From Ectocarpus siliculosus (Eukaryota; Sar; Phaeophyceae; Ectocarpales; Ectocarpaceae), in contig FN648406.1 in assembly GCA_000310025.1 (NCBI GenBank), positions 42,243 to 96,456 of the forward strand: a DNA stretch of 54,214 nt, given 5' to 3'. A model generated the notes under the pieces. It was given only the letters and a program-made list of their open reading frames with translations, did not search any database and was not told where the DNA came from. The translations under genes were made by a program, and so were the position numbers. How positions within the stretch are numbered: position 1 is the first letter of the stretch; each line of letters begins with the position of its first letter. Of the stretch, positions 22,425 through 39,700 are shown one piece after another.

Positions 22425-22455
22425 TCAGGACACGGGGCATATCGGTGTAATGACC
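22300..22455. repeat. 76-bp tandem repeat with hairpins, spanning the USP stop codon
   Basis: Two copies, about 22300-22376 and 22378-22455, share TGCCTGTCTGCTAG, GAGCAA and ACACGGGACATATCGG cores. Each has a small palindrome (TGTCTGCTAGGCAGACA in copy 1; GTCTGTCTGCTAGACAGAC in copy 2). The USP stop codon (TGA, 22427-22425 on minus) and its last residues are encoded by copy 2. Confidence 0.8.
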
Positions 22456-24192
22456 ACAGCGCCTCTCCCGCCGCCCCCGCCCTGCGACCAGCCCCCGTCA
22501 TCCGTGCGCGCGCGCTCCATAAGGTCGAGCTGCAGAGCTAGCTCGTAGTCACTCTGCGTCTCCATGAGAGCAAGCTTCTCCTTCATCTGTGACGGATAAT
22601 GCGTTCCAAGAACACGAGGGAGGGGGGGGGGAATGGCGTTGGGGGTATTCGGTTCAATGCCAGCGGAGCGGATGATCCATTCCAGAAAATCAGAATTGTC
22701 GGCGTGCGCGCCAAGTCTGGTGGAGAGTTGTAGTGATGCAGAAAACCCCAAGCATGCGGCGAAGAACCCGTCGAGTAACAACCTGACAAGGACGACAACG
22801 TTTTGGACAAACCACACGTCCCCAGTTGCCAAAGCAACCTTTACCACCATCACCACTACCGCCGCTGACAGCACAACAACAACAATAACCAACACCATGA
22901 AAAACAGCAGCAGCAGCAGCAGCAGCAAACAACACACATCCAACAGCAACAGCAGCACCGTGAATACCAACAACAACAACAACAACAATAACCAACACCA
23001 TGAAAAACAGCAGCAGCAGCTGCATCAAACATCTGGCGCACCTGAGCTTTCCCAGCATCGTCCAGGTTGAGTGGCACCAACTGTGTAATAGTGGATGTCG
23101 TTGTTTGTCGAACAACGCCAACGAGGGTAGAAGGATACACAAGCACGCATGAGTGGTCCGTTTAGTTGACGTCGGACCGCACACGACACGGCAACATTGC
23201 ATTGTTAGACTACAGATAGCACCAAACAACCAGTACATAGGAGGGTGGGATGAGGACAAACTACACAAAAATAATACTTCGGAGTATTGTTTTCTGGGTG
23301 TTTAAACGCAGATTATCACCGTACGCCCTAGCAAGCACGTGGCCGCTTTGTTGTTGGGGGGGGGCACCATACAACAGAAACGTCCGCTAGCATCTCAAGC
23401 GCACCTTTCTCTAAAGCCAGGGGTCGGGTACTGGGTTGGCGTTGGCTGATACTGCACGATGGGATACCAACAATATTATCCAGTACCAACGGCAACAAAA
23501 GCAACGGCTACAACCCAACAACCCAGCACAATCAGTGCAGAAAGAGACATGGTACTGATTGATTCCATCGCCTCGCGATGCCATACTGTACCTCATAGAA
23601 GAGCATGTAGCTGTGCAGTCCGAGGTCCTCGCTACCGAGCAGCGGCGGTTATTTTCGAGTATTAGTAGCGCACGGCCAACACCGCCGTCAAAAACAATAT
23701 GAAACAGACCGGACGAGAGCCGCAGTGAAGTCAGCACGACAGAAGGAGTGTGTGCACAGGAAGCATGAGCAGCACCACCGAAAACACAACGGAAACAAAG
23801 GCAAGGCTGGGGAAAAGTCGAGAGTCGTCCGGGGGGAGGGGGCACAGTAGTGAGTCTGACGTCACTGCAACGCCGTCGCAAGGGTAAAAAAATAAGGAAG
23901 ACCCTTGTGATTCCCAGGGCGCGTGTCGTTTTTTTTCAACACGTTCAGCAGTAGTCCGGCTAGGGGACGGGGTTGTGAAGAACTCTAGCCACACGCGCAT
24001 ACAACCAACAATTGACAGATATGGGCATGCGGTCAAAACAAAACGCGTGCCGGAGTCTGGAATGGGGGGATACTGCAACAGACGCTCTGTACATGCAGTA
24101 GGCCAGTTATAAAGTTTGCTCTTCACGTAGCAGCTCCAGAATGAGAAAGAGAGAGAAATAGACCACCAACACCACCATCACGACCACCACCC

Positions 24193-24232
<40 letters not shown>

Positions 24233-27200
24233 CGCCACACCAGCAACGCACCTGAAGAGACGGTTTGCCTCGTGAACGGTGTCCAACCTCTCCACGTAAC
24301 CCCGCCCCCCCGGCCCTTCATGAAGGTCGTCCAGACGCAGCCACGCCACGCTGTCTTGGCTGCTCTCACCGTCATCAGCCCCTATGCTCGACTTCCCTCC
24401 TCCTGATGCCCACCCCGTCGTCGACTTCGAAGCCCTGTTTGTTTGTTTTTTTACCCAGGGGGTTCCGCGGGCATGGTGGCTGTGAGGAAGTGGCTACAAC
24501 GTGTGTGTGTGTGTGTGTTTTTTTTTATTATTATTAGCATCGACCGCGCTAACCGGCTGACCAATGAAAAGACGTCAGTCTTAGTGCGGTTGAAAACACA
24601 AAACACTTCTATCTGCCATGAACTGGGACCCCGTGAGGGGGCAGCATAGGGGAGGCTAAACTATCCTTCGGATCAAAGTGTGTGTGTGTGTGTGCTCATA
24701 GTCGTGCATGCCGTAGTCGTTAGACACATTGACCTAGCATCCCTACAAAGCCGGGACGGAGCACGGCGGGTTCTCACCGGACTACCACAGGTTCTCACCG
24801 GACTACCACAGGTTCTCACCGGACTACCACCAATCGCCAAGCGGGGGGGGTATTTGCTAGGCGAGCAACACGCCAACGTCCCAGGGCAAAGCATCAAACC
24901 GCAACATAACCGTGTGAGCAATTAACGATTGAGCATTCAATCCTCCCACAGCACACAGCATACATTGCAATCGACACAGCCACGTAGGCTGACTGGCTCA
25001 CCATTCACCGGCTTTAGCAGCGTGGGCGACACCGGCTTCACCCTTCTTGTTCCCGCCGCCGTCGCCGGACGCGACTCTGTCGGCGGTGTAGGCGACGTAG
25101 TGGCCCTTGCTCACGCTCTCTCCCCCGAGGTGGCACACGGCAGAGCGGAGCACTAGCACGAAGCGTCCGGGCTCAGATTTGTCGGCACGACCCTGCGGGA
25201 TGAGTAGGTATTTCGTTCACGGCAGGCAGCGTCTTAAAAAGAGAAAATAAGAGCCCGCCCGGCGGGGCGAGATCGCACACGAAAAACGACTTTCCATTAT
25301 GATATCTTTACTACTGCTGTCTCTGTTGCTCTGCCGCACTCCCATGGACCCCCCCCTCCCCTCCCGGCAGGAGATAGTAGAGTAGGAAGTAGTTGCCTGC
25401 GTTGTAAGCATGTCTCCGCTGGGATCGGCGGTGCCAAGCCGCCTGGAAAGGGTCGGTCACTCAACGATCGAGCCAAAGATTTCAGGCGAGGAATGATGTG
25501 AGTACACCCCGCCTCCGTCACCAACAACCTTGGCACCCCTACATTCCCACGCTCAACTAACACGCTCGCACCCAACGGCGACTTTTAGAGGAGGATTTCT
25601 TAGCCGAGCGCCTGTTCTTACGGCCAACGCACTCTCTTAATTGCCTGTGCTCCTGAGCTTGAAGTTTCTCGACTCCGAGGTTCTCAACAGAGTAACACTG
25701 TAATGGTGCCGAAAATGGCTGCGTTGGAACCGTCTTGTCGAGAGCTTTCGGAAAACGTAACACCTCCTCTTCGTCGTGGAGTAATCGAGCTTTAAAAAGC
25801 AGTCCAACCGGAAGGGGGGTGTGGCATCTTACGCAGCCTCCGGCACCCCCTCACCTTAGCACTGTCATAGGGGGGGTCGTGTCTTACGCAACCTGCGGGA
25901 CTCCCGCACCATAGCACCGACATAGGGGGGGTGTGGTATCTTACGCAGCCTACGGCATCCCCGAACCTTAGCGCCGGCAGAGGGCGCCATGAAGTTGGAC
26001 ACGTCCAGGCGGTGCGGCACGATCACTCTGCGGCGGGACTTCGTCGCTTCTGGCACAGCAGCACCAGTACCAGAGGCTCGCGAAAAGGCGCCGGCGGCGG
26101 GAGTAGGCGCGACCGGCTGCTCGTACCTCTTGAGCACCATCGGCAGCATTATCCTTCGCGGGTGGGGTGGTTTTTGGGGAATGACGGGAAAACAAGCATG
26201 TTAGTCACCGTTGGTGAGCGGGAGATAGATATATATATCACTGCTGTCGGATCCCCTCTGGGTGCAAGTGAACTGAGCGAAGCAAGCTGTGTGCCTCGCG
26301 ATAGCGGCGAGAGAGCCTGTTCGTTGGGAGCAGCGAACGTGCAAAGCAGCACCAGCAGCAGCACCAGCGCTGTGTCTACCCCCTTGCGTGTTTAAGCCCT
26401 TGGACGTAGATACGAATGTAGCGGCATGTGTCTACAAAAATGTACAAAAACAGAAGCAACGGTTAAACGGATCAACAGCAGCGAGAACCACAGTTCCAGT
26501 TAAGTAGACAACACCAGCAACAACCGCAGCATCAATTCGGAAGTAGAGGATGCAAGGCTCCGGAAGTATTGAATGCGTGGGCGGGATGATTATCCCACTG
26601 CAAGGGCAACGAGAGGAAATGCGTGTTACAATACGCCGTGTTTCAGAGATATTTCGTTGATTTGGAACAGAATCAACAACAGCAATAACCACAGCATCAG
26701 AGCAAGTTACAGGAAGACATGAGTCTTTATGTAAAGCAATTCCCTTCTCTCTCTCTCTCCCTTCTCTCTCAANNNNNNNNNNNNNNNNNNNNNGGGAGGG
26801 GGGGGGGGGGGGGGGGGGCGTACGCATGGTTCGCATGGCTTGGGGTGTTAGGCATCCTCGAGAGGAGGAAAAGGAGGGGAAGGGGAAGATTGAACCGAGG
26901 GGGGGAAGCGAACTATAGCGAGGACCTTTAGGAGAGAGCGGGATGATCATGCTTTTTTGTCACTAACGGAAACATGGCGCAAGCGCCTCACGACTCAACC
27001 GTCTTTGAAGCGACAACGAAGACGAGAAAAAACGGGAAACGCAACCAAGAGTACCGAAGGAACAAACGGCGTAGCGTATGCGGAACAAAAAAATAACAAG
27101 ATGGGAGCACATTTGAGGACGTATGGATGCAAAATTTGACGCTGTTTTCGCGTTCCTCTCTGTTGTTGCACCCTACCAAACGGCTCCCGTGTCTTCACGA

Positions 27201-28339
27201 CACATCAAAACGACCATGTCAAACATACTTTGTTATTTTCATTGTTTCTGGACGGGGTATTGTATAACTATGCCGCGCGTTATGCATACCACAACATAAA
27301 TGGCTTGTAGGGCCATTGCTTCTACGCGAACCAAAGAACAGAAGAAAACGGCACATGGCCCACCGCCTGAACGTATGCAGAACCTTTGCACATCCTGTAC
27401 AAAACAAAAATAATCTCTACACAAAGGCTGCTGTTCCATGCATACAACAAAGGCTGAGTTCTTCCATGCACAGTCTTCGCACGTCCGCGAAACAAGAAAA
27501 AAAAAAGACACACGCAACACGCACAAACGCACATGTTTTCACCGGTCAGCCGTTTAGCGAGGTCGATTCTAACAACAACAAAACACACGCAAACGCGAAG
27601 AAAAGTGGATTATTTCGCACGAAGACGAGGACGACGCCCCACCTGGCTCCCCTTCTCCCCAGAGACGGAACGCCGAAGACCCTCCACACGGTTGTCGTGG
27701 AAGTTGTGCATCAGGATCTGCTCCAGCGTTACCGCCGCCCCGACCCCTCCGCTGTCCTTGCCCTTGCCCCTACGTGGAACTGACGGCGACCTTGCTGTGG
27801 CCTGCTGCTCCCCCTGTTGTTGCTGCGTGGCTGGTGAGGATGATGCTGCGGGATCCGCGTTGGAGTTGGTGGAGAGAGGAGGAGCGGCGTTTGCGTCCCG
27901 GGTGGGCGACAGGGACTTGGGTCTCTTCCGGTCCTCTTTTTTTTTTTTTTTGCCGTAAAGGGAGTTCCGTGGTGTCATGGCAGGGGGGTGTCGGCGAAGG
28001 AGAGCAAGCAACGAGAAGGAGGAGGGTGTCATGTACATGAGATCAGCGAACCTGGGGCTATGGGAGGTACCCCGGGCGGGCATCGAAGGTATACATGCAT
28101 GCGTGCATTGAAAGAACCCAAGACTTGATTGCATGTTAATAGCTGTCAGAAGGTGGAGATATGTATCTACTGCATTGGGGGTCGGAGCGAATACTGTCCT
28201 TCCAAAGGCCAACTTTACAACGACGACGACAAGATCGAAAACAACGCCAACGATGGCAATAGAAACGGCAAAAGCAGCACCACCACCACACAACGAAAGC
28301 CAACGACAACAGGAGCAACAACAACAACGGCAAGAACAC

Positions 28340-28378
<39 letters not shown>

Positions 28379-29218
28379 CGACCATAACACCAACAAAACT
28401 ACACACTCTACAGAGCCCCCCCCCTCACCGGTCTCCTTCTCGGCCTCCGGAAGCGCTAGGAACAGCGCCCGCTCCGTCGAAATCCTAGAATCCCCGGCGT
28501 CGACGTTACCCCCGTGGAAGAGGGCCTCGCTAAGGGGTAGCGCGGGGCACCGCAGAAGGCAGACCAGGAAGGTGAATAGCTCCGTCACGTCCTCCTGGGT
28601 GGAGGCTCCACCCTGCCACCCACTTTTTTTTTGTCGTTGTTCAGAGCAAGATGGCGAAGAGGGGTACAGGTTATGTCCGCGAAAATAATAGCGGTCAGAG
28701 AGAGGTCCTTTGCACGGGAGGTTGCTGTCGTTCGGAACAAGACGGTGAAAGGGAGGTACTGGTAGGTTAGGGTAAAAAGAGGTATTCTACTTGTAGGTTT
28801 ATGACCGTGAAAGCAACTAGCTCCCCCCTGCCGTTCACTGCTGTTTGTTTTCGTTCGTTCATTTGTTGGTCGTTCAGAACAAGATGGTAAAGGAGAGGGT
28901 ACGACCGCGAAAGCAATACCGGTCAGAAAAGACTACTTTACATGTGTTCTGTGCGTGTGTGGGGGACCCTTTTCTTCAGGACAGTGTATGGGGGACGTCT
29001 TGATGAAGTGCTGCGTTTTCGGAGAGTAGAGTACAAGTACATAAATGGCTTTCAACATACCGCTACTAGTTGTGCGCACACCCGTTTAGAAGTTTAGAAT
29101 GCACAACAAAGACGAAGCGCTGAACCAGCATCAACCACAGCACCACCTCCAACACCAGCGACAGCACGACCAACAAAATAGCAGCGACAGCAGCAGCAGC
29201 GGCAGCAGCAGCCACAAT

Positions 29219-29250
<32 letters not shown>

Positions 29251-32200
29251 CGACGACAGCATGCCATTTTGTCCGCGCTCACCATCTCCTGAGGTGAGTC
29301 CGTATGAGGTTAGAGTGTTCCCGCGGAATCGTCGCGCCTTCCCTCAGTTGGTTGACCAAGAACCGAAGGTGCTTCTGCAGCAGCTTCACCTGGCCGTTAC
29401 AAGTCCAAGGAACGAAATGCAAGCCAAGATGTGTCTCATTTTGAAACCGATTTCATTCGAATGGGGCAACAACTCAAAGGTGTCTCACGAAATTCAACTA
29501 CTAGGATTGTATGCACAGCTGCAGCTTGGATTTTCCGAATATATATATATATATATTGATCGACGTTAGCTCCTTGCATCTATTATCATGCTACACCGTT
29601 GAAGGGTCAGCTGCTGCGTAAAAAGCGTTCTCCGGTTTCAGCCGCCCTGAGACACTGAGACTGACGCCCACTCGTTGGCTCACGCGGTCGGTGGTCGACA
29701 AACACACACAATTAAGTACGACATCACTGTATGCTGCTTGGGGAATCGCAGAAACAGGGATAGCAACCCGCTACACGCTATGAATTCACTACCAATGTAT
29801 CCTGGACCCTTTTCTGTGGATATAGATGGATGTATTGTGTGATGGTAAGAAGAATAAAAAAAAATTAAAGACACACGTGCCTCGGGGGGATCGGTGGACG
29901 GCAGCGGCTTGAACAGCAGCCAATCGAACGCGTCCAAGGTGGCGAACATGGCGAACAGCAGGCTGAACAGGCAGGCAACCGTCAACACGACACCAAAGGG
30001 ACACGAGCAAGCGGAGGAATGGACCATCCATGCGTGTTGGTGGGCACGGGAGTCTCGTAGCAACGGCATTGTGACGGTTGGCTGTGTGCGAGCCTGCGTG
30101 TTGCGTGCCTGCCCTGTCTTCGACCAATTAATATATGCTGCGATGGGCTAACGTGAGAAACAATAACGTCGACATCACCAACAAGCTCTCCATCCACCGC
30201 AATAGATGGCCTAGCGGTAGCACTGACTATAATAGTGGCGACTGCAAAACCAATATGTTCCGCGTTTGGCGACAACAAGGACGGAGGAAGCTGTCCGGTA
30301 CCGATACCGCGGCTACTGCGGGACAGACAGTCAAGACACTACCCTACTCGATCAAATACCACGGTAAAAACCGCAGGGGCAACGTCACCTTCATCCAGGG
30401 GGGGCAATCTTCTCGACGAGACTACTAATGCCCACAATGACGCCCTCCCCCGAGAGCCCCCCCCCCCACCCACCACCACCACCACCACGTGGACCCCCTC
30501 TCCTCTCCATCAGTCCACGATGAACCCCCAAGGCCGCCTCCAATCGCGCATTCACGCCATACGCACGTCATGACAGCCTCCCCCTGCCAATCACATAAAC
30601 CCTTTCTCCTCCCCTTGACGACGAACGGTCAGGGCCGCCGCCGAATCGCATCACATTCACATGTCGCCATGCATGTACTGCTGTACCCGCACCACCTACC
30701 TGTCGATGTAGCAGGTGTTGCCGCCGTTCTGCATCCCTCGAACGGGCGCCCCCGGGTTGACCTTCTCCAGCAGGCCCTTCCCGGCGGCCACCAGGCTCTG
30801 GTACAGCGCCGTAGCCGCCTCCGGACCCCAATCCTTGTACCTTGTTTTTCATCGTTACCGCAGCTGTGGTTAATTGCGTGTGGTGAGGAGATACATATGT
30901 GGGTAGTTTATGGGTGTCCGTGTGCTTAGAAAATATCCCGGGTCTGGAAAGTCATGCTTCGAGCATGACTTGCCATCGGGGGTTTGGGCAGATTTTGTGT
31001 GTCCTTAGGTGAAGTATGTGCTTAGACAATATGCCGGGCCTGGAAATCGCGTTTCGATCGTGAGTTTGCCATCGGGGATGCGGGCTGTGGTCGTGTGTCC
31101 TCGACACGTCGTGCTTAGAAAACATACCGGATCTCGAAAAAATACAAGGGCAATGATAGGCATGGTACCCCGTATCCGAGAGCCTTGAGTCTTTCCTAGG
31201 AGCAAGCAGACACACAGACGGTACGGGGGGTTTCCCCCACTTGGGGCCCTACCCGCCTCCGGTACTCAACCGGGTACTCAACCCCTGTACCCCATCCATC
31301 GATCCGCCAACCCATACTATACCCGACTTGTCGACGAGCTTTCGGGTCTGCAGCCACTCCTTGTATCATAGTATAGGAAGAAACGAGTGCTTGCATGGGA
31401 GCAGAACACTTGCCATCACGTAGATAGACGACCGAACTGGGCAACAGATACTTAGTCCTACGTTGCCTTCACAGCCCGACCCAACCCCATCAAGAGCAAG
31501 AGCTCCCCCCTTAGGTATTATTCGCTTTCGCCTATCGCTGTCTGCACTACAACACCCGTTCTCTCGCCCACCGCCGTCTGGACTAAAACCGCGCGACCAA
31601 CAATCGACCGTTCCAGCTCGCTCCCCCGCTTGTTTCCCCTAACCTCGCCCCCAAGCCATGTACCGTACGACACCCCCGCCACGGACCACCCTCATCACAA
31701 ACCAACGCAACCCATAGCCTACATGTACCTCAGCAGGGTGAGGAGCATCTCGTACGGCAGGTCGACTCCGAAACTCATCAGCTCGGCCACCCGTACATCC
31801 CTCTCCTCGTCCGACAACGGGGACGACAGCACCCCGCCTTCGCCGCCCCCGCCACGTTCACCGCCCCCGGCGCTTCCTGTGCCGCCGAGGCCCTGTCTGC
31901 CAACCACCTTGGCGACCACCTGCGATGCATTGAATTAAAAAAATATACGAAATCAAGGGGAGGGGGGAGGGGCGTACTCTTATGTTTTGCATGCCTTTTC
32001 GGTTAGACCATTGACCACGCGTCTACGACCGGGCGGAGCGTTGTTCCCACGGGACCGATGGCCAATCGCTCCTTCCTACAAGGGGGGGGGGGGGTACTCA
32101 TGTTTTGGATGCCATAGGTGTTAGACCATTGACCACGCGTCCTCGAGAATACGGAGCACACGGGGGAGGGAGGAGGATACTCGATTACTGCTGTTTGCCA

Positions 32201-35200
32201 TGCATGCATGTAGTCGTTTGACCGTTGAATAACGAGTTCCGCTGGTCACGATATGTATATTTTTTTTTCTTCCGTGAGGGGCACCAATTCTAGTGCAGTA
32301 CCCGTGCACGCGGCGAACAAGTTTGTTCGTCGTCATGTGGTGGATCAAACGAGGAAACGCGGTGGCAACAAAAAGGTTGGTTTTGGGCGTTCATTGTTGT
32401 ATACAGGATGACTCTGCTTGTTGTTCTACTTGGAAAGAAGCGCCGTCAAATGTAGGAACGTCGTTGCAAGGCGACCCAGTAGCACCCCAGTGCGGGCGAG
32501 CCTTGTGCTACGGGGCCCGACCAGACCAACAAAATCTCACGGACGATTTCCCCCTGCAGAAAGCGTTCTCCATGGGACCACACACGACAGCATCAAGGCG
32601 TGTGCGTATCTTGGACGCACCCCATCCCTCCAACTAACCTCATGTAGGAAACCGTTTAAGAACTCCCACTGGATCAACCTCTCCTCTCGCTCCTCGTCTT
32701 CCTCCCCCTTCACCTCCGCCTCGCCAACACCCCCCCCTCCATCGCCGGAGCCCCCCCCGTCTACGTCCTCGTCCTGGCACGTCATCGTTTCGTCCTCACC
32801 ATCGGCATCGCAGTCAACTTCGCCCCCTCCGCCCCCGTCCGCACCGCCACCTCTCAGCTTGGCAACGGGAGCATAGGGTGACGTCGGGACAGCTGTGCTG
32901 GGCGGGGAAACTAGAGCGGTCGGCGACCGGGCCTTCGGCGACGGAACCGCCGGTAGTGGCGGGTCCGGAATAACCCCCGGCTCGCCGCCACTACCCCCTC
33001 CGCCGCGATTCTCGTCGCCCAAGCCGGTCGTTGCGACAGCCTCGGCAACCGCGGCAGGGTCAGCACCCCCGTGTGCCACGCCACCGTCGGCCCCCTGCCG
33101 CTGCTGCCGCCCAGCCCCCGGTGATGATCGGGGCTCCGTGTCATCATCCCCGCGAACGTGGGTGGTGTCTTCTGCCGTGCGGGTCCCCCTCCCGTCGTCG
33201 TCGTCGCTGTCATCGTCCGTCTCCGAGTCAGAACCAGACTCCGAGTCCGTGGGGTCTTCCGTGCCCGACCACCGGTCTTGCCCCTCCCCCCCTCCCGACT
33301 CCATTTCCACGGTGCGAACCCCCTCCCACGCGCGGGACCCCACCGACCGTTGCTCTTGTTGCCGGAAACGCGGCGGCTGGTGTTGCCGCGGGCTGCTGCT
33401 GTCGACGTGGTCGGACAACGGCTGTCCCGAGGCACCTGCCGTCCCCGCCGCTGCCGGCGACGAAAGCGGGAGGGACGCTTTTCGCCGGCCGTCGTTCTCG
33501 CTCCCTCCGCCACCGCTACCACTGCTGCAGCCCGTAGCGACTTCCGCCGCTGCTGCCGGAACATCGCTCCCCTCCTCCGCTCTTCCCTCCGCGGAAGCTA
33601 CCCCCATTGCAAGGGTCTTCGTAGCCGCAGCCTTAGATGACCGTAATCCCGGGGTAGTACCGCAAGGGCCGTCATCCCCGGCGACGGCGGCGTCATCGTC
33701 CTCGCCGCCTCTGGGGGCAACATCCGCCACCATCTTTTCCCGTCGGGCGTGAGCAGCGGCGTGGAAGGCGGGCGATGGTGGTATCGGCAGAACGGTCTCC
33801 GTGTGCATGACCTGTTGAAAATCCAGACGGGGTCATCCCGGCGGGGGAAGAGAGAGGGCCAGGCGTGTGTCCAGTTGTGATTGCCGAGCGGGGGGGGAGG
33901 GGGGGGGGGTGTCGGGTTGTTGCAACGAAAACAGCCACGCGCCGCCCTTGTACGCTATACGAGAGAGGAGCACTACAGTACGTATGTCCAACCCATCGAC
34001 CTTGAAGACCGGAACCCCCCAACATCAAAGAAAATAGGACGTAGGGTGGTATCCCCTCCCCTCCCCTCCCCTCCCCTCCCCTCCCCTCCCCTCCAGGCTT
34101 GGTCCTTAATCCAGTTCGGGGCTGTGGGGTTGTGGATCTTCTCTAGTGTACCCCTTGTGGTGTGCTACTGCTGTACGGTAGGCTGCTAGACTCACCCGCA
34201 CGTAGTCGCCGTTTTGGTCCTGCGCCAGCCGGTTGTTCTCCAGCAGGCCCAAGAAACTCGCCACTTTGTTGGGCAGCGGCCGCAGGTACACCTGGCAAAA
34301 AACGAAAACACAACAAGCAGAGGAGGTTAGCAAGCAGCAACTGTTCTTAAACCGATTCTAGTCAAAGGGTACGCCGCCGTGCAGGCATGGAAGCATAAAG
34401 AAGACATGGGGGAAAACGGGAAGTTGCCATACTCGCAAACACATACAGCAGTGGATTTCAGGGGGTGGGGGGTGATTTTCGGCGTCGCCTACGGTCTGCC
34501 TACCGCCTTTCATGCGTGTGCCCCGCGAGTTGGGAATCTCAACCTCCAAAAACAGCAGAACAACCGGCCGGCCCTTTTCAGAGAGAGGGCAACCGCAGAT
34601 TGTACCATGCCGGGTTATGCACTACCGAGTACCCGTGAAAAAAGCGCGAGATCTCCACTCCCTCACGACTGACTCACCAGCGCTTCGAGGAACGAGTGCA
34701 GCGCCTTCCGCCTCTCCTGCTTGAGGGAGAAAGACCTCCCGAGGGGAATCCTGCTCGGAAACTTGCACACGAACAGGATCGTCTCGATGCTCTCGATCAG
34801 CTCCGCTGAGCCCGGCGGCCTAGAACACGCGCTGCTACCGCCACCGCTGCTGCCGCCCCCGTCTCCTCCGGCTGCTGCAGCCGAAACGCCCCCTCCAACC
34901 CCTAAGGATGCCGTCCCCCGCTCCGGAGGTTTATTCGCGGGGTGGGGCTTTCCGCCGCGAGATGACGGTGCTGGCTTCTTTTGCCGGTAGTGTTGGCATG
35001 CTGTCTTGAGGTGCTGCCGGAGCGCTACGAATTCTCGGTAACGCCTGTGCACTACCCACACCTGGGGGGGGCGCCGTGGCGGACATGGGGGGGGGGGGGG
35101 TAGACAGGGACGAAATGACTCGGTACAGCTGTAGCTGGGGGCACCCAAAAAAATGTGCCGGTTGAGTATAGTATAGTGCTTGGGGGGGGTGCCGGTGATT

Positions 35201-36336
35201 CTGGCTATGCATGGCACATGGCGGCGCAACTGAGGGCCTCAAACGGCTGCCGAACTCCGAGTCGGGTGCATGCATGTGTCTCTGCCAAACAATGATTCGA
35301 TGAGGGCGCACAGCCTGCTGCTATGGAGAGGAGGATGCCGTGCGTTTCTTCACGAATCCACGGGCTGATCAGCAGACAGCGCTCTCGGAAGGAGTGATGC
35401 TGTAGATAGCTTCCGTCGCGTGTACAAGTGTGCACGCGCCTGTACAGGAATGGGGAAATGTGTCAACCACGACCTGGGGGTGAGGTGTGGTACCACCGCA
35501 AAACGCGCGCGGCGCGATCATCACCCGCAACGAGACGCGCGAAAGTGCCTCTTGAGCGTCAATCTTGAGGTCTTGAGGGCGGGTGCCGCCGGTGTTGGAC
35601 CGGGGCTGGGAGAGGTTCCAGGTCTACAGATGTCCCCTGACTCCTACATGTAGTGTCCGTGTGTATAAGGAAAAATAAAAACAAACACAGAAAGACTAGT
35701 CTACCCGTTCGAGAGAACCACAGTCGAAGGGGATGTGTCGGAGTCTTTGCAGTGAGTGGAGGGAAACCTGGGCTTACACTGATGATTCATACCAGTGATA
35801 CCAGCTGGTGCTAAGCACAAAATAATCTGTTCACGCAACCTACATTTACAATACGTCCCCTGTAGTTCTCTACTGGGTCAACGGCAAAAATATCGGAGAG
35901 AAGCGTGTATGTATACAGCAGGCAGGCGTGCGGACCATTCTACAGCTGCTGCAAACAGCAGTGGCACTTCGAGTCAAGCACCGCACCTTGCTGTCCAACT
36001 CCACCGCTGTTGTATAGGCGTAAATTGGTGCTACATTCAATAGAACGAAGTGCTTTTCGCCCTAATGCTGTATAAAAGTGCTATGCTACCAACGTTGCGC
36101 TCTAGACTACAAGTACAAGCTGCACTGCTGTTGTGCGCCCCAGACGCTACTCCTGTACACGCTGTACACTACACACAACTACGCACTTGACAATAATAAT
36201 AATTCTTTACCTGTCTCGTGTGTGGCAGTTCAACTCTGCACTCATACAGAGTGTGCCCCGCGGCGGGGTGCTTCAGGAAGCTCGAAACCTTGACCGTCAC
36301 CACCGGCATCCCTCCCTCGGTTGTTGTGGAAGGCAT
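22425..36336 (-). CDS. PX-UBA-USP(C19)-UIM deubiquitinase (16 recognised exons)
   Basis: Cysteine protease that should remove ubiquitin from proteins. Exons, 5' to 3' on minus: 36336-36211, 35061-34678, 34291-34196, 33811-32639, 31919-31729, 30840-30700, 29962-29875, 29389-29283, 28622-28429, 27935-27643, 26153-25967, 25192-25002, 24434-24252, 23631-23592, 23080-23042, 22586-22425. All phases match except 27643 to 26153 (0 to 2), where an exon seems lost. About 1198 residues are visible. An N-terminal PX domain (HTLYECRVELP, WVVHRRYREF, FPSRIPLGRSF) has a Gly/Ser insert. Then come an acidic linker (TDDDSDDDDG), a UBA-like helix set (AELMSFGVDLPYEMLLTLLR), the Cys box (MQNGGNTCYIDSLLFAMF, Cys about 700), QEDVTELFTFL, LPMVLKRY, the His box (GHYVAYT), LHSYMLFYELVPL and a UIM-like end (SDYELALQLDLMER). 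PX suggests phosphoinositide-membrane targeting (inference). The start has an in-frame TAG just upstream. Confidence 0.88.
22880..23030. repeat. (CAG)n/(AAC)n tracts in the last USP intron
   Basis: CAG repeats at about 22902-22927 and 23006-23020, AAC repeats at about 22968-22990. A 20-bp stretch, AATAACCAACACCATGAAAA, occurs twice (22884 and 22987), so the tract arose by local duplication. On the USP sense strand these read CTG and GTT. Confidence 0.85.
24185..24236. repeat. (CAA)n tract in a USP intron
   Basis: Near-perfect CAA/ACA triplets, about 45 bp, starting 15 bp downstream (minus sense) of the donor at 24251. On the sense strand it reads TTG/GTT. Confidence 0.9.
24526..24676 (+). 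repeat. Dispersed repeat family A, copy 1 (about 151 bp)
   Basis: This is nearly identical to 45896-46046 (three mismatches seen). It begins ATTATTATTAGCATCGACCG and ends TATCCTTCGGATCAAA. Read on the minus strand it ends in an A-rich (TAA)n tail, like a SINE. It lies in the USP intron between the His-box exon and the next exon. Confidence 0.85.
24766..24833. repeat. 21-bp tandem repeat, three copies
   Basis: GTTCTCACCGGACTACCAC plus CAG/CAG spacers is repeated three times in a USP intron. On the minus (sense) strand each unit carries CCGGTGAGAAC, which matches a good 5' splice site, though none is needed by the model. Confidence 0.9.
25823..25990. repeat. Three-copy, 55-60 bp tandem repeat carrying the splice donor of a USP exon
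   Basis: The 3' end of the LPMVLKRY exon (ending 25967 on minus) and its donor lie in copy 1 of a tandem repeat. The two downstream copies carry aligned donor-like sites. Sense-strand sites are GCTAAGGTTCGG (about 25970), GCTATGGTGCGG (about 25912) and GCTAAGGTGAGG (about 25860). The second is in frame with the exon; a TGA precedes the third. Confidence 0.8.
26773..26793. other. Assembly gap (21 N)
   Basis: A run of N between a CT-rich tract and a long poly-G run, inside the USP intron where codon phase and conserved sequence indicate a missing exon. The true gap size is unknown. Confidence 0.95.
27530..27590 (-). repeat. Diverged dispersed repeat (family A), reverse orientation
   Basis: The reverse complement reads TTGTTGTTAGAATCGACCTC then GCTAAACGGCTGACCGGTGA, matching the 5' part of the copies at 24526 and 45896 with several changes. 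It is flanked by a (TTG)n stretch in the same position where the other copies have (TTA)n. Confidence 0.6.
28255..28395. repeat. (ACC/CAA)n tract in a USP intron
   Basis: ACC, CAA and AAC triplets lie between the exons at 28429 and 27935. On the sense strand they read GGT/TTG. The tract starts about 35 bp after the donor. Confidence 0.85.
29105..29255. repeat. (CAGCAG/AAC)n tract in a USP intron
   Basis: CAG then AAC triplets lie between exons 29389-29283 and 28622-28429. A plus-strand ORF through it (poly-Asn/Gln-rich) is antisense to a USP exon and is not a gene. On the sense strand it reads GTT and CTG. Confidence 0.85.
30930..31145. repeat. Tandem repeat of about 85-95 bp, 2.5 copies
   Basis: Three starts, GTGCTTAGAAAATATCCCGG, GTGCTTAGACAATATGCCGG and GTGCTTAGAAAACATACCGG, are followed by similar sequence (TGCCATCGGGG and GTGTGTCCT) in the USP intron between the UBA exon and the Cys-box exon. 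Confidence 0.8.
31955..32230. repeat. Degenerate tandem repeat of about 120 bp, 2-3 copies
   Basis: GTACTCTTATGTTTTGCATGCC and GTACTCATGTTTTGGATGCC, each followed by GTTAGACCATTGACCACGCG, lie 120 bp apart, with a third weaker copy near 32180. They are in the USP intron upstream of the UBA exon. Confidence 0.75.
34052..34095. repeat. (CTCCC)n microsatellite
   Basis: Eight or nine perfect CTCCC units in the USP intron between exons 34291-34196 and 33811-32639. G-rich (GGGAG)n on the sense strand, so it could fold as a G-quadruplex in the transcript. Confidence 0.95.
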
Positions 36337-36720
36337 CCTCTATGTAGGTCCGAGGTGATGCGAACAACGGAGAGAGAGGGACGAAGAAGAACAGCGGAGA
36401 ATAATGTCGTACTTTCCTTCCGTCCGCAAAGAAGCGGCTCTCCTGGTTTTGGAAATAACGGCGGTTGGGCTGCGGTGATACCTGCGTCGCACGGCCTTGT
36501 GTGTCTTGCAGTGTTGGTAGATAGCGTGCACAAGAATGGCGGCTACACACGTTGTACACGTGCAACCCGCCCCGAAAATCGGTGCACGAGACTGTCAAGT
36601 AGCCTTGCCCCAACATTTTTCAAGTTGGCGTTCTTGTATGTCAAAGATGTCACCTCATGTCGTTGATCAACACTTCAGCAGCAGTACCGGCTATAGCTAC
36701 AGTGGACAGGAGGGAGACCA
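36337..36720. promoter_or_regulatory. Candidate bidirectional promoter between USP and plastid-protein genes
   Basis: 384 bp separate the start codons of the minus-strand USP (ATG 36336) and the plus-strand presequence gene (ATG 36721). No other gene fits here, so both transcripts probably start in this interval. No clear TATA element is seen. Confidence 0.5.
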
Positions 36721-39700
36721 ATGAGGCTCGTTGCGCTACTCGTCGCTCTGCACATCAGCGGCTCAGGCGTCTCGTCGTTCGGGCTGACCCCCGCGATGAG
36801 GACGACATCGCCACGACAATCGTCGTCGCTGCACCTCTTCTACCTATCTTCTTCGGCGCCCACAAGAACCGCCGATGTTGTTGCTGTTGCGCGTGGCCGC
36901 CGCCGCAGCAGGTTGGTGGGGGGAGAACGCCGGCAACGGCGGTGTGGGGCCCAAGCTGGTAGCTCGGGCGGCGAGGGAATCGGAGTGAGTCTTGTTGCTG
37001 AGCAGGGGGGACGACGTCGCTTCAGGCAGCGGGAAAAGGCCCTGGTTGGCTGCGTTGAACGTTTGACACAGCAGGGTTCGGTGTGTGCCTCTTGCCTCCC
37101 TCCGTCGTCGTCGATGTTCCCCGAGAAGAGCGAAAGCTCGCAGAGGCATGCCGTGGGCCGCTGCTAGTGATTATCAGTAGGGGGTGCTAACTAGCGAAGT
37201 TGCTGTGAGGTTACGCGAGTGTGTACTGGTGCGGTCACGGCCCTGTCCCTCGGTTAAATTCTGTGCGCTGATTTTCACGCTGTTGTTGCAGAGCGCATGG
37301 AAGACAGCTGTAGTCTAAACTGTACACAGCAGCGACCACCCGGAGGGGACGTAGCCAGCACAACACCCAGAGCGGATGGGCTACGTGTTGCACCTCGGGT
37401 GTAAGGACGGAGGTTTGAGCACACCAAAAGAGGAGATAGATGCCGCAGCAGCAGTTGTGCTGATGAACCCAGCGGGAACAAATCATGGCAAAACATATTA
37501 TTAGTCTAGACTAAGCCCGCCAAGATTGTCGAGACAAGACATGATAATGATGGGCGGCACGCGTCACATGTAGCAACGGCGGTGATTTGCCGTACGCTTC
37601 CCGCGGCACTTGTAGCAACCACAATCCGGTGATTGATTCGTGCGACGCCATGGGGACATCACCATGAGCTACTTAGAACGCTTTCTTTTCCGGGGACACT
37701 CCTTCCGTTGTGCTGCGAACATCCCGCCGCGCGCAGGCAGGACTTCGGCCACCTCAGGTCTGATGAGATTCCATACCGCCCCGGGACCGATTTTCAGAGC
37801 CCCATTATTCCATTGGATGCCACAATCGAACAGCTGCCTCAGGTGTCACAAGATATCATAGCCCCTGGACCGATTTTCAGAGACCCATTATTCCACGGCG
37901 AAGAGGATGCCACAAACAAATGATAACGATTTCGGGATGCACTCGACGGGATGGTGGTTCAAAAGCCACCGCCACATGCTGTTTTTTGCCTCTGAGTAAT
38001 CGAGCCTTGAAATCGGTCGAGGGGGGGTGGCATATATTACCTTATGCTACCTACCGTCAACGTACCCGGTAACAAACGAGCATCATGAGCAAACGTTGTG
38101 AAGGCCATGGTGTTCTCTCATTCACTCCCCCGACATACAACGAGACCACGGACAACAACACCAACACCACCTCCACCAACAAACAACGAAAACACTCCGA
38201 TTTTCTTGAAATACACCCAGGCGGACAACTCGGACGCACAGCCGAAGGCTGATGGCGGCAGCAGTAGCAGCGGCGATGGCGACGGGAAGCCGACTAGCCT
38301 GGTGGCAAGGCTGGGCACGGCAGGTGGAGTTAGGGAGGGCTCGTCCTTCAATACGTACTTGTCTGAAGCTGGTTTCACTTGATACGTGCGCGTGGACGCG
38401 GTTTTTCTCCGATGTGGCACCATTCGACTGATGCAGAGATGGCCTTTGCAGTCCCCTGTGGGGGTGAAACCTGGCGTATCGTGTGCGTGGTTTCAGCACA
38501 GCACTCACTCCTGACCAACCAAATATCGATATATCCACAGTAGGAAGAACGTCAACGATTAGGACGGCGTTGAAAGAAAGCCATTTCGTTTTTCGAGCGA
38601 GCGAGCGAGCGAACAAGAGAGACTTCTGTGAGGATGCGTTACCTACCGTTCGGTGTTGGTGCCTTGGTTGCTTTGTTCTACAGCAATCGACCAGTCCGAG
38701 GGGCAGAGTCGGCACAACGTCGAGGACATGGCAAACCCTCTCAAGCATGACAACCGCCTGGTATTTAGGCAGAGGGTGGTGTGCATGTCGCGTGTTGCGT
38801 GGGGTTTTGTTGCTCATCTGCGTGTCCTGGACGTCAGTTTTGTACACCTTTGGATGTGTTTGGACGCACCAGCCGGGTCAGCAAGCAGGAAGGCCACGCA
38901 AGAGGTTCCTACAGATTTCAGCGTCTTGGGGGTGGCTAGCGTTGTCTTTACTGGTGTATACTGACTGTCGAAACGGATACATCTACGTTGTCTGGACCAC
39001 GCATCTTCGGGCTTCAAGCAAGCACAAGCCCCGCCTCTTCGTCGTTCCTCTCTAAAAGAACCTTCTCTCTCGTCCGATACACCATACTTGCACAATAACC
39101 CGACGAACGGCCTCAGGGTTGGTATCGTATGGCATGCTGAACGGGCTGTGGTACTCCGGCGGCATCGCCTTCGTCATGCTTGGGCCCATGGGAGCGGTCC
39201 CGGCAGGGAGTGGGATCGAGGGAACGATCGCCGCGTCGGTGAAGCAACTCGGAAAGGTGCGTGAAACCGTGTCTACATGCAGTGTAGGTGTGCGTTCTTG
39301 GTTGTTAACTCTGTGTGCATTCATTGGTTGGCAACTGCACTTTGGCATTACGGATACCGCTGGAGTAAAAAAGAACTCGGTTTTAGACAAGAAAGCCTCC
39401 GTTGATTTTTTTTGCTCTGTTGCAAGGTGTGCCGGCCCGTTGCATCCGGACGCGGTATTTCCCCTAATAGCGGCCTGGTGAATCGAGTACCGCAGCATTT
39501 GCGCGCGGAGACCTGGAACACACTGACTGAAAACGGCCTCGCGAAGGCGAAAGCGACGTTCCTCTTGCACTGCTTGGTCGTCGCCTGTCCGCTGAACCAT
39601 GCTACCGTGCCTCGGACTGTGTCCGGTGCTGTGTTAGTTTCGCAAGCCACGAGTTTTGAAGCATGGAGGAAGTATCGTGGATCGTTGTCTGCATGATTGC

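Follow-up and report, generated by a model that had tools for sequence, protein, structure and literature searches.

The window analysed here is a stretch of 54,214 nucleotides from contig FN648406.1 of Ectocarpus siliculosus (assembly GCA_000310025.1), and all positions below are counted from its first letter. On its minus strand, from 36336 down to 22425, a model of 16 exons can be drawn for a product of about 1,200 residues, the exons being placed by frame, splice signals and domain motifs. The model runs from a PX domain (exons 1-3) through a linker exon of 391 residues and a weak UBA-like segment into a USP core. Both outer limits proposed in the initial annotation are right, since the exon chain from the ATG at 36336 to the stop at 22425 connects the PX and USP motifs that it had quoted, all of which were found on the minus strand where it had placed them. 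For ten flanking open frames Pfam gave no match with an E value of 0.01 or lower, and no tRNA was found in the window. On the plus strand, an open frame at 36697-37167, also lacking a Pfam match, begins with MRLVALLVALHISGSGVSSFGLTP, a start that looks like a signal or plastid-targeting peptide. Some 385 bases separate its first ATG from the PX start, upstream of which it lies on the opposite strand; a divergent gene at this place would set the 5' limit of the PX-USP gene.

Exon structure and domains of the locus

Seventeen candidate exons were placed and one of them, a 47-nt candidate at 23451-23405, was dropped for breaking the frame, which leaves 16 exons and 15 junctions. Exon lengths give phase agreement at 14 of the 15 junctions, a count to be taken as support and not as independent proof because the boundaries were partly chosen for frame. 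The earlier description of in-phase exons linking PX to USP thus stands for every junction save that between exons 10 and 11, and the product reads as 931 residues up to that junction and 266 after it. GC content is 0.55-0.69 in the exons vs 0.44-0.60 in the introns, and in all 16 cases where a candidate exon is followed by an intron, the exon has the higher GC of the two. Exons 6, 9 and 10 have purine-rich acceptors. Long GTT/TTG triplet runs are found on the minus strand in introns of the gene (about 24195-24235, 28340-28380 and 29220-29260), and these may make both splice calling and assembly harder.

The PX domain starts in exon 1 (36211-36336, minus strand like all exons below; 126 nt, donor gtaaag), which holds the ATG and the first PX strands. 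Exon 2 (34678-35061) contains the core, with the RRYREF box, the FPSR loop and a helix matched by the Pfam PX profile, and exon 3 (34196-34291, acceptor tttgccag, donor gtgagt) completes the region. Between the first PX helix and the FPSR loop, exon 2 carries a Gly/Ser/Pro-rich insert of about 50 residues (around 34812-34975) that could be either an in-frame unspliced intron or a disordered insert. The assignment to PX holds with and without it: the uncut protein scores 28.8 bits against a cut-off of 21.6 (E 1.9e-6), covering profile positions 4-39 of 84 only, and removal of the 50 insert residues raises the score to 33.9 bits (E 4.6e-8) and extends the match to positions 4-80. By sequence, the nearest solved PX domain is that of sorting nexin-22 (E 0.031 for the uncut domain, improving to 0.0078 once the insert is removed), with the RRY.EF box and the FPS loop aligned; SGK3 and SNX16 come next in the insert-cut comparison with the PDB, at E values of 0.53-0.84 that on their own are at chance level. 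The PX domains of these three proteins are of the endosomal type. Most PDB matches of the uncut domain at E up to 1 (21 of 22) are unrelated by name, comprising 19 antibody fragments, LysB4 and a 'nuclease', and were set aside because such matches are expected from a Gly/Ser-rich stretch; sorting nexin-22 is still the best match. Both the RRY.EF box and the basic residue of the FPSR loop, which contact the phosphoinositide in PX domains, are kept here.

Exon 4 (32639-33811) encodes the linker, presumably disordered, with 19% Asp/Glu and 17% Gly. Its frame is open over 391 codons, an openness reached by 6 of 5000 sequences in a simulation based on its second-order composition, and its two other sense frames contain 8 and 13 stops. 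Exon 5 (31729-31919) carries the end of the linker and the first part of the UBA-like segment, the remainder of which lies in exon 6 (30700-30840). The initial annotation had assigned a UBA-like region here, and this label fares poorly: the cut-out segment matches PF09145 over 17 residues with 18.1 bits (E 0.0025) and the long protein with 13 bits (E 0.099), against a cut-off of 27, and its best PDB match, Swa2, is at chance level (E 1.3). A similar outcome awaits the UIM-like tail. The last exon (exon 16, 22425-22586, with the stop) contains SDYELALQLDLMER, which resembles a UIM motif, with Asp at the Ser place, and lacks Pfam support; no Pfam family matches the last 66 residues even at E 10, in a search where the HMMER filters drop most weak matches.

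The USP core extends from exon 6 to exon 14. Its boxes, named after the general USP motifs, follow one another in order. The Cys box MQNGGNTCYIDS is in exon 6 (Cys codon 30713-30711) and is followed by further core sequence in exons 7 (29875-29962) and 8 (29283-29389). The Gln box TQEDVTELF lies in exon 9 (28429-28622), whose acceptor sits within an A tract, making the boundary uncertain; the same holds for the A-tract acceptor of exon 10 (27643-27935), which encodes a low-complexity insert and the VTLEQIL...NFHDNRVE segment. LKRYE is found in exon 11 (25967-26153), the His box GHYVAYT in exon 12 (25002-25192, His codon 25102-25100), the W..LDD box in exon 13 (24252-24434, Asp codons 24331-24326) and the closing strand SYMLFYE, with its YMLFYE motif, in exon 14 (23592-23631). 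Exon 15 (23042-23080), so numbered after omission of the 47-nt candidate, leads to the last exon. The putative catalytic Cys, His and Asp and the oxyanion Asn are thus laid out in order in NGGNTC, GHYVAYT and W..LDD, which suggests a working enzyme. The Pfam UCH profile matches the second half of the core above its cut-off of 23.9 (24.8 bits, E 1.9e-5) and the first half just under it (22.3 bits, E 1.1e-4). No CxxC pair was seen in the exons read.

Among solved chains, the USP query matches 11 distinct PDB sequences at E up to 1, the best being CYLD (0.0073), three uncharacterised chains with similar alignments (0.015-0.021) and Ubp6 (0.029-0.054); at that threshold no PDB chain matches the second half on its own. 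As the top solved match, CYLD suggested a possible kinship, which was rejected: the E value of only 0.0073 is reached over 89 residues, the second half is left without a PDB match, and CYLD has Gly in the alignment at the first Asn of NGGNTC. Judged by its sequence, the core is a divergent one without placement in a named subfamily, and may resemble a family of fungal USPs. A comparison of the USP piece with PADLOC returned nothing.

A probable single gene and its interrupted core

Taken together, open frames, composition and splice signals make it quite likely that PX and USP belong to a single gene, and from them we infer one PX-linker-USP mRNA. In this sense the fusion proposed in the initial annotation is the best-supported reading of the locus, with its UBA and UIM labels weak or unsupported. 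The division that has to be weighed against it falls between exons 3 and 4. There, two neighbours on the same strand could be drawn instead, namely a short PX protein made of exons 1-3 plus 29 read-through codons and a linker-USP gene beginning at the ATG at 33808. Reading through past exon 3 does reach a stop after 29 codons, and that ATG is the second codon of exon 4, an exon preceded by an in-frame stop at a distance of 8 codons; the linker and USP could thus begin alone at this point. The long region between the domains (about 430 residues from the end of exon 3 to the UBA-like segment) points in the same direction, as long interdomain regions are described as a mark of false fusions in helminth annotations (PMC12964723). 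Against this division, intron 3 has good splice signals on both sides (gtgagt and ttcaacag) with matching phases, exon 4 being in phase 0 at both ends, toward PX and toward USP, and merely 384 bases separate exons 3 and 4 to accommodate the end of one transcript and the start of another. Two separate genes are rather unlikely. A USP gene starting further downstream, at exon 5, where an in-frame stop lies 6 codons upstream, would break the UBA-like segment because the first Met falls inside it.

The single-gene model is interrupted at one place. Exon 11 requires two bases from the exon before it, which exon 10, ending in phase 0, does not supply, so that the 'complete USP core' of the initial annotation does not hold for this assembly. 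The intron between them contains a gap of 21 N (26773-26793), a possible site of a missing exon. A search of this intron gave 81 open, phase-fitting stretches free of N, and of the 9 better-signalled ones that were read none was recognisable as USP. The likeliest origin of the phase break is an exon lost in the N gap, the alternatives being a wrong boundary or real damage. Damage would mean that the fusion is real and that its USP part is broken in this genome, leaving a PX scaffold without activity; the phase break itself and the failure to recognise a USP piece among those 9 stretches would agree with it. However, the N gap falls within the same intron and stretches containing N were left out of consideration, and the active-site boxes, like the frame downstream, are intact, all of which makes a damaged enzyme quite improbable.

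Genomic context

The E. siliculosus assembly comprises 189 Mb in 492 contigs. When the PX region is compared with it, the match pieces (5 with E up to 0.1) all fall at its own locus, and for the USP region the own locus accounts for 7 of 9 pieces, the other two having E values of 0.017 and 0.046. Neither domain of this gene has a close second copy in the genome. At the family level, UCH is represented by at least 59 match pieces (E up to 0.01) and PX by at least 5, spread over 4 places (E up to 0.001); these counts are lower bounds because the exon-by-exon family searches missed this very gene, and another split PX-USP gene could escape for the same reason. Three contigs (C2, C15 and C26) have both PX and UCH matches, with the nearest listed pieces about 200-310 kb apart. 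No USP or PX relative was confirmed among viral, bacterial and archaeal contig collections, which do not cover algae.

The genome also contains match pieces for Snf7 (7), UEV (2), MIT (2) and JAB (8), and those for Snf7 and UEV point to the presence of an ESCRT pathway. The USP8_dimer family (PF08969) gave no match, a result that does not establish its absence since none of 14 control genomes matched either. As a separate observation, 87 chlorophyll-binding-protein match pieces are found in the genome, as befits a photosynthetic eukaryote, and its size, composition and style of introns agree with a brown alga. On contigs C92, C232 and C488 many of these pieces have identical scores and close spacing, in what looks like recent tandem amplification.

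Proposed function and comparison with known systems

The reading preferred here, to which a probability of roughly one half is given, is that a single PX-linker-USP gene encodes a membrane-tethered deubiquitinase, recruited by phosphoinositides, probably to endosomes, and acting there on cargo or sorting factors. From its domains, recruitment of the protein to a membrane and action on endosomal cargo would be expected, with a PX that binds PI3P, an active enzyme and endosomal targets. The PX would hold the enzyme at a phosphoinositide membrane, most likely by binding PI3P, whether on endosomes or on the vacuole. The linker, long and acidic, would give the USP reach and let it sweep cargo, and the USP core would strip ubiquitin from membrane cargo or sorting factors at that membrane. 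With PX and USP on one chain, an adaptor would be unnecessary. The specificity of a PX is unreadable from sequence alone, and a real PX-USP protein might use its PX for another membrane or for a protein contact (other phosphoinositides, autophagy or plastid-bound vesicles) instead of endosomal PI3P. Such a role is unlikely given that the nearest solved PX is that of sorting nexin-22, at E 0.0078, followed by SGK3 and SNX16 with their chance-level values.

If the tethered deubiquitinase is real, a further step can be taken, tentatively and on the doubtful side. Known endosomal deubiquitinases reach endosomes through protein contacts, and USP8/UBPY and AMSH, whose task is deubiquitination at endosomes, are recruited via their USP8_dimer/MIT region. 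In this algal lineage, PX might have replaced the ESCRT-binding modules of USP8 and AMSH to give a cis-acting endosomal deubiquitinase, in which lipid identity alone would place the enzyme on ubiquitinated cargo. A lipid reader and an enzyme in one protein would suggest that both tasks belong together, and the PX-USP protein would offer a simple system for asking if positioning a USP at a membrane is enough to determine what it acts on. Another question on which it would shed light is the retrieval of ubiquitin before cargo enters vesicles in lineages distant from animals and fungi.

PX and USP are each well known, and it is their combination that appears new, as far as the literature matches listed and this genome go. 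Among those matches, no PX-USP protein is named in the text consulted. In a PX census, Nexin_C, Vps5 and PXA are the partners shared by every group, protists show 38 PX-associated domains, and UIM is among the domains found with both FYVE and PX; the words 'ubiquitin' and 'UCH' are absent from its main text (PMC2837644). Neither word occurs in a census of Kinetoplastea PX proteins (PMC10380299), and in an oomycete PX is paired with a myosin (PMC3942036).

Like other PX proteins and sorting nexins (PF00787), the protein described here has a PX above cut-off, with sorting nexin-22 as its nearest solved relative, and it differs from them by the Gly/Ser-rich insert before the FPSR loop and by having a USP as partner. 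From the side of the USPs (C19, UCH PF00443), it shares the Cys, Gln, His and Asp boxes in order and UCH matches in both halves, but it has an N-terminal PX, low-complexity inserts and one segment missing in the assembly. The likeness to USP8/UBPY and AMSH is in the proposed task, deubiquitination at endosomes, and the difference is in their USP8_dimer/MIT region, which Pfam does not find in the PX-USP protein. In animals, a PX protein also places a USP when SNX17 recruits USP9X; this involves two proteins at centriolar satellites and not at membranes, in contrast to the one chain proposed here (PMC6912348). PX proteins meet deubiquitinases in two further cases: SNX3 is deubiquitinated and stabilised by USP10, and OTULIN has a non-catalytic action on SNX27 (PMC7823608). 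In the former the PX protein is itself the substrate, and neither case recruits an enzyme to cargo, unlike the PX-USP protein, in which the PX itself would bring the deubiquitinase to its targets.
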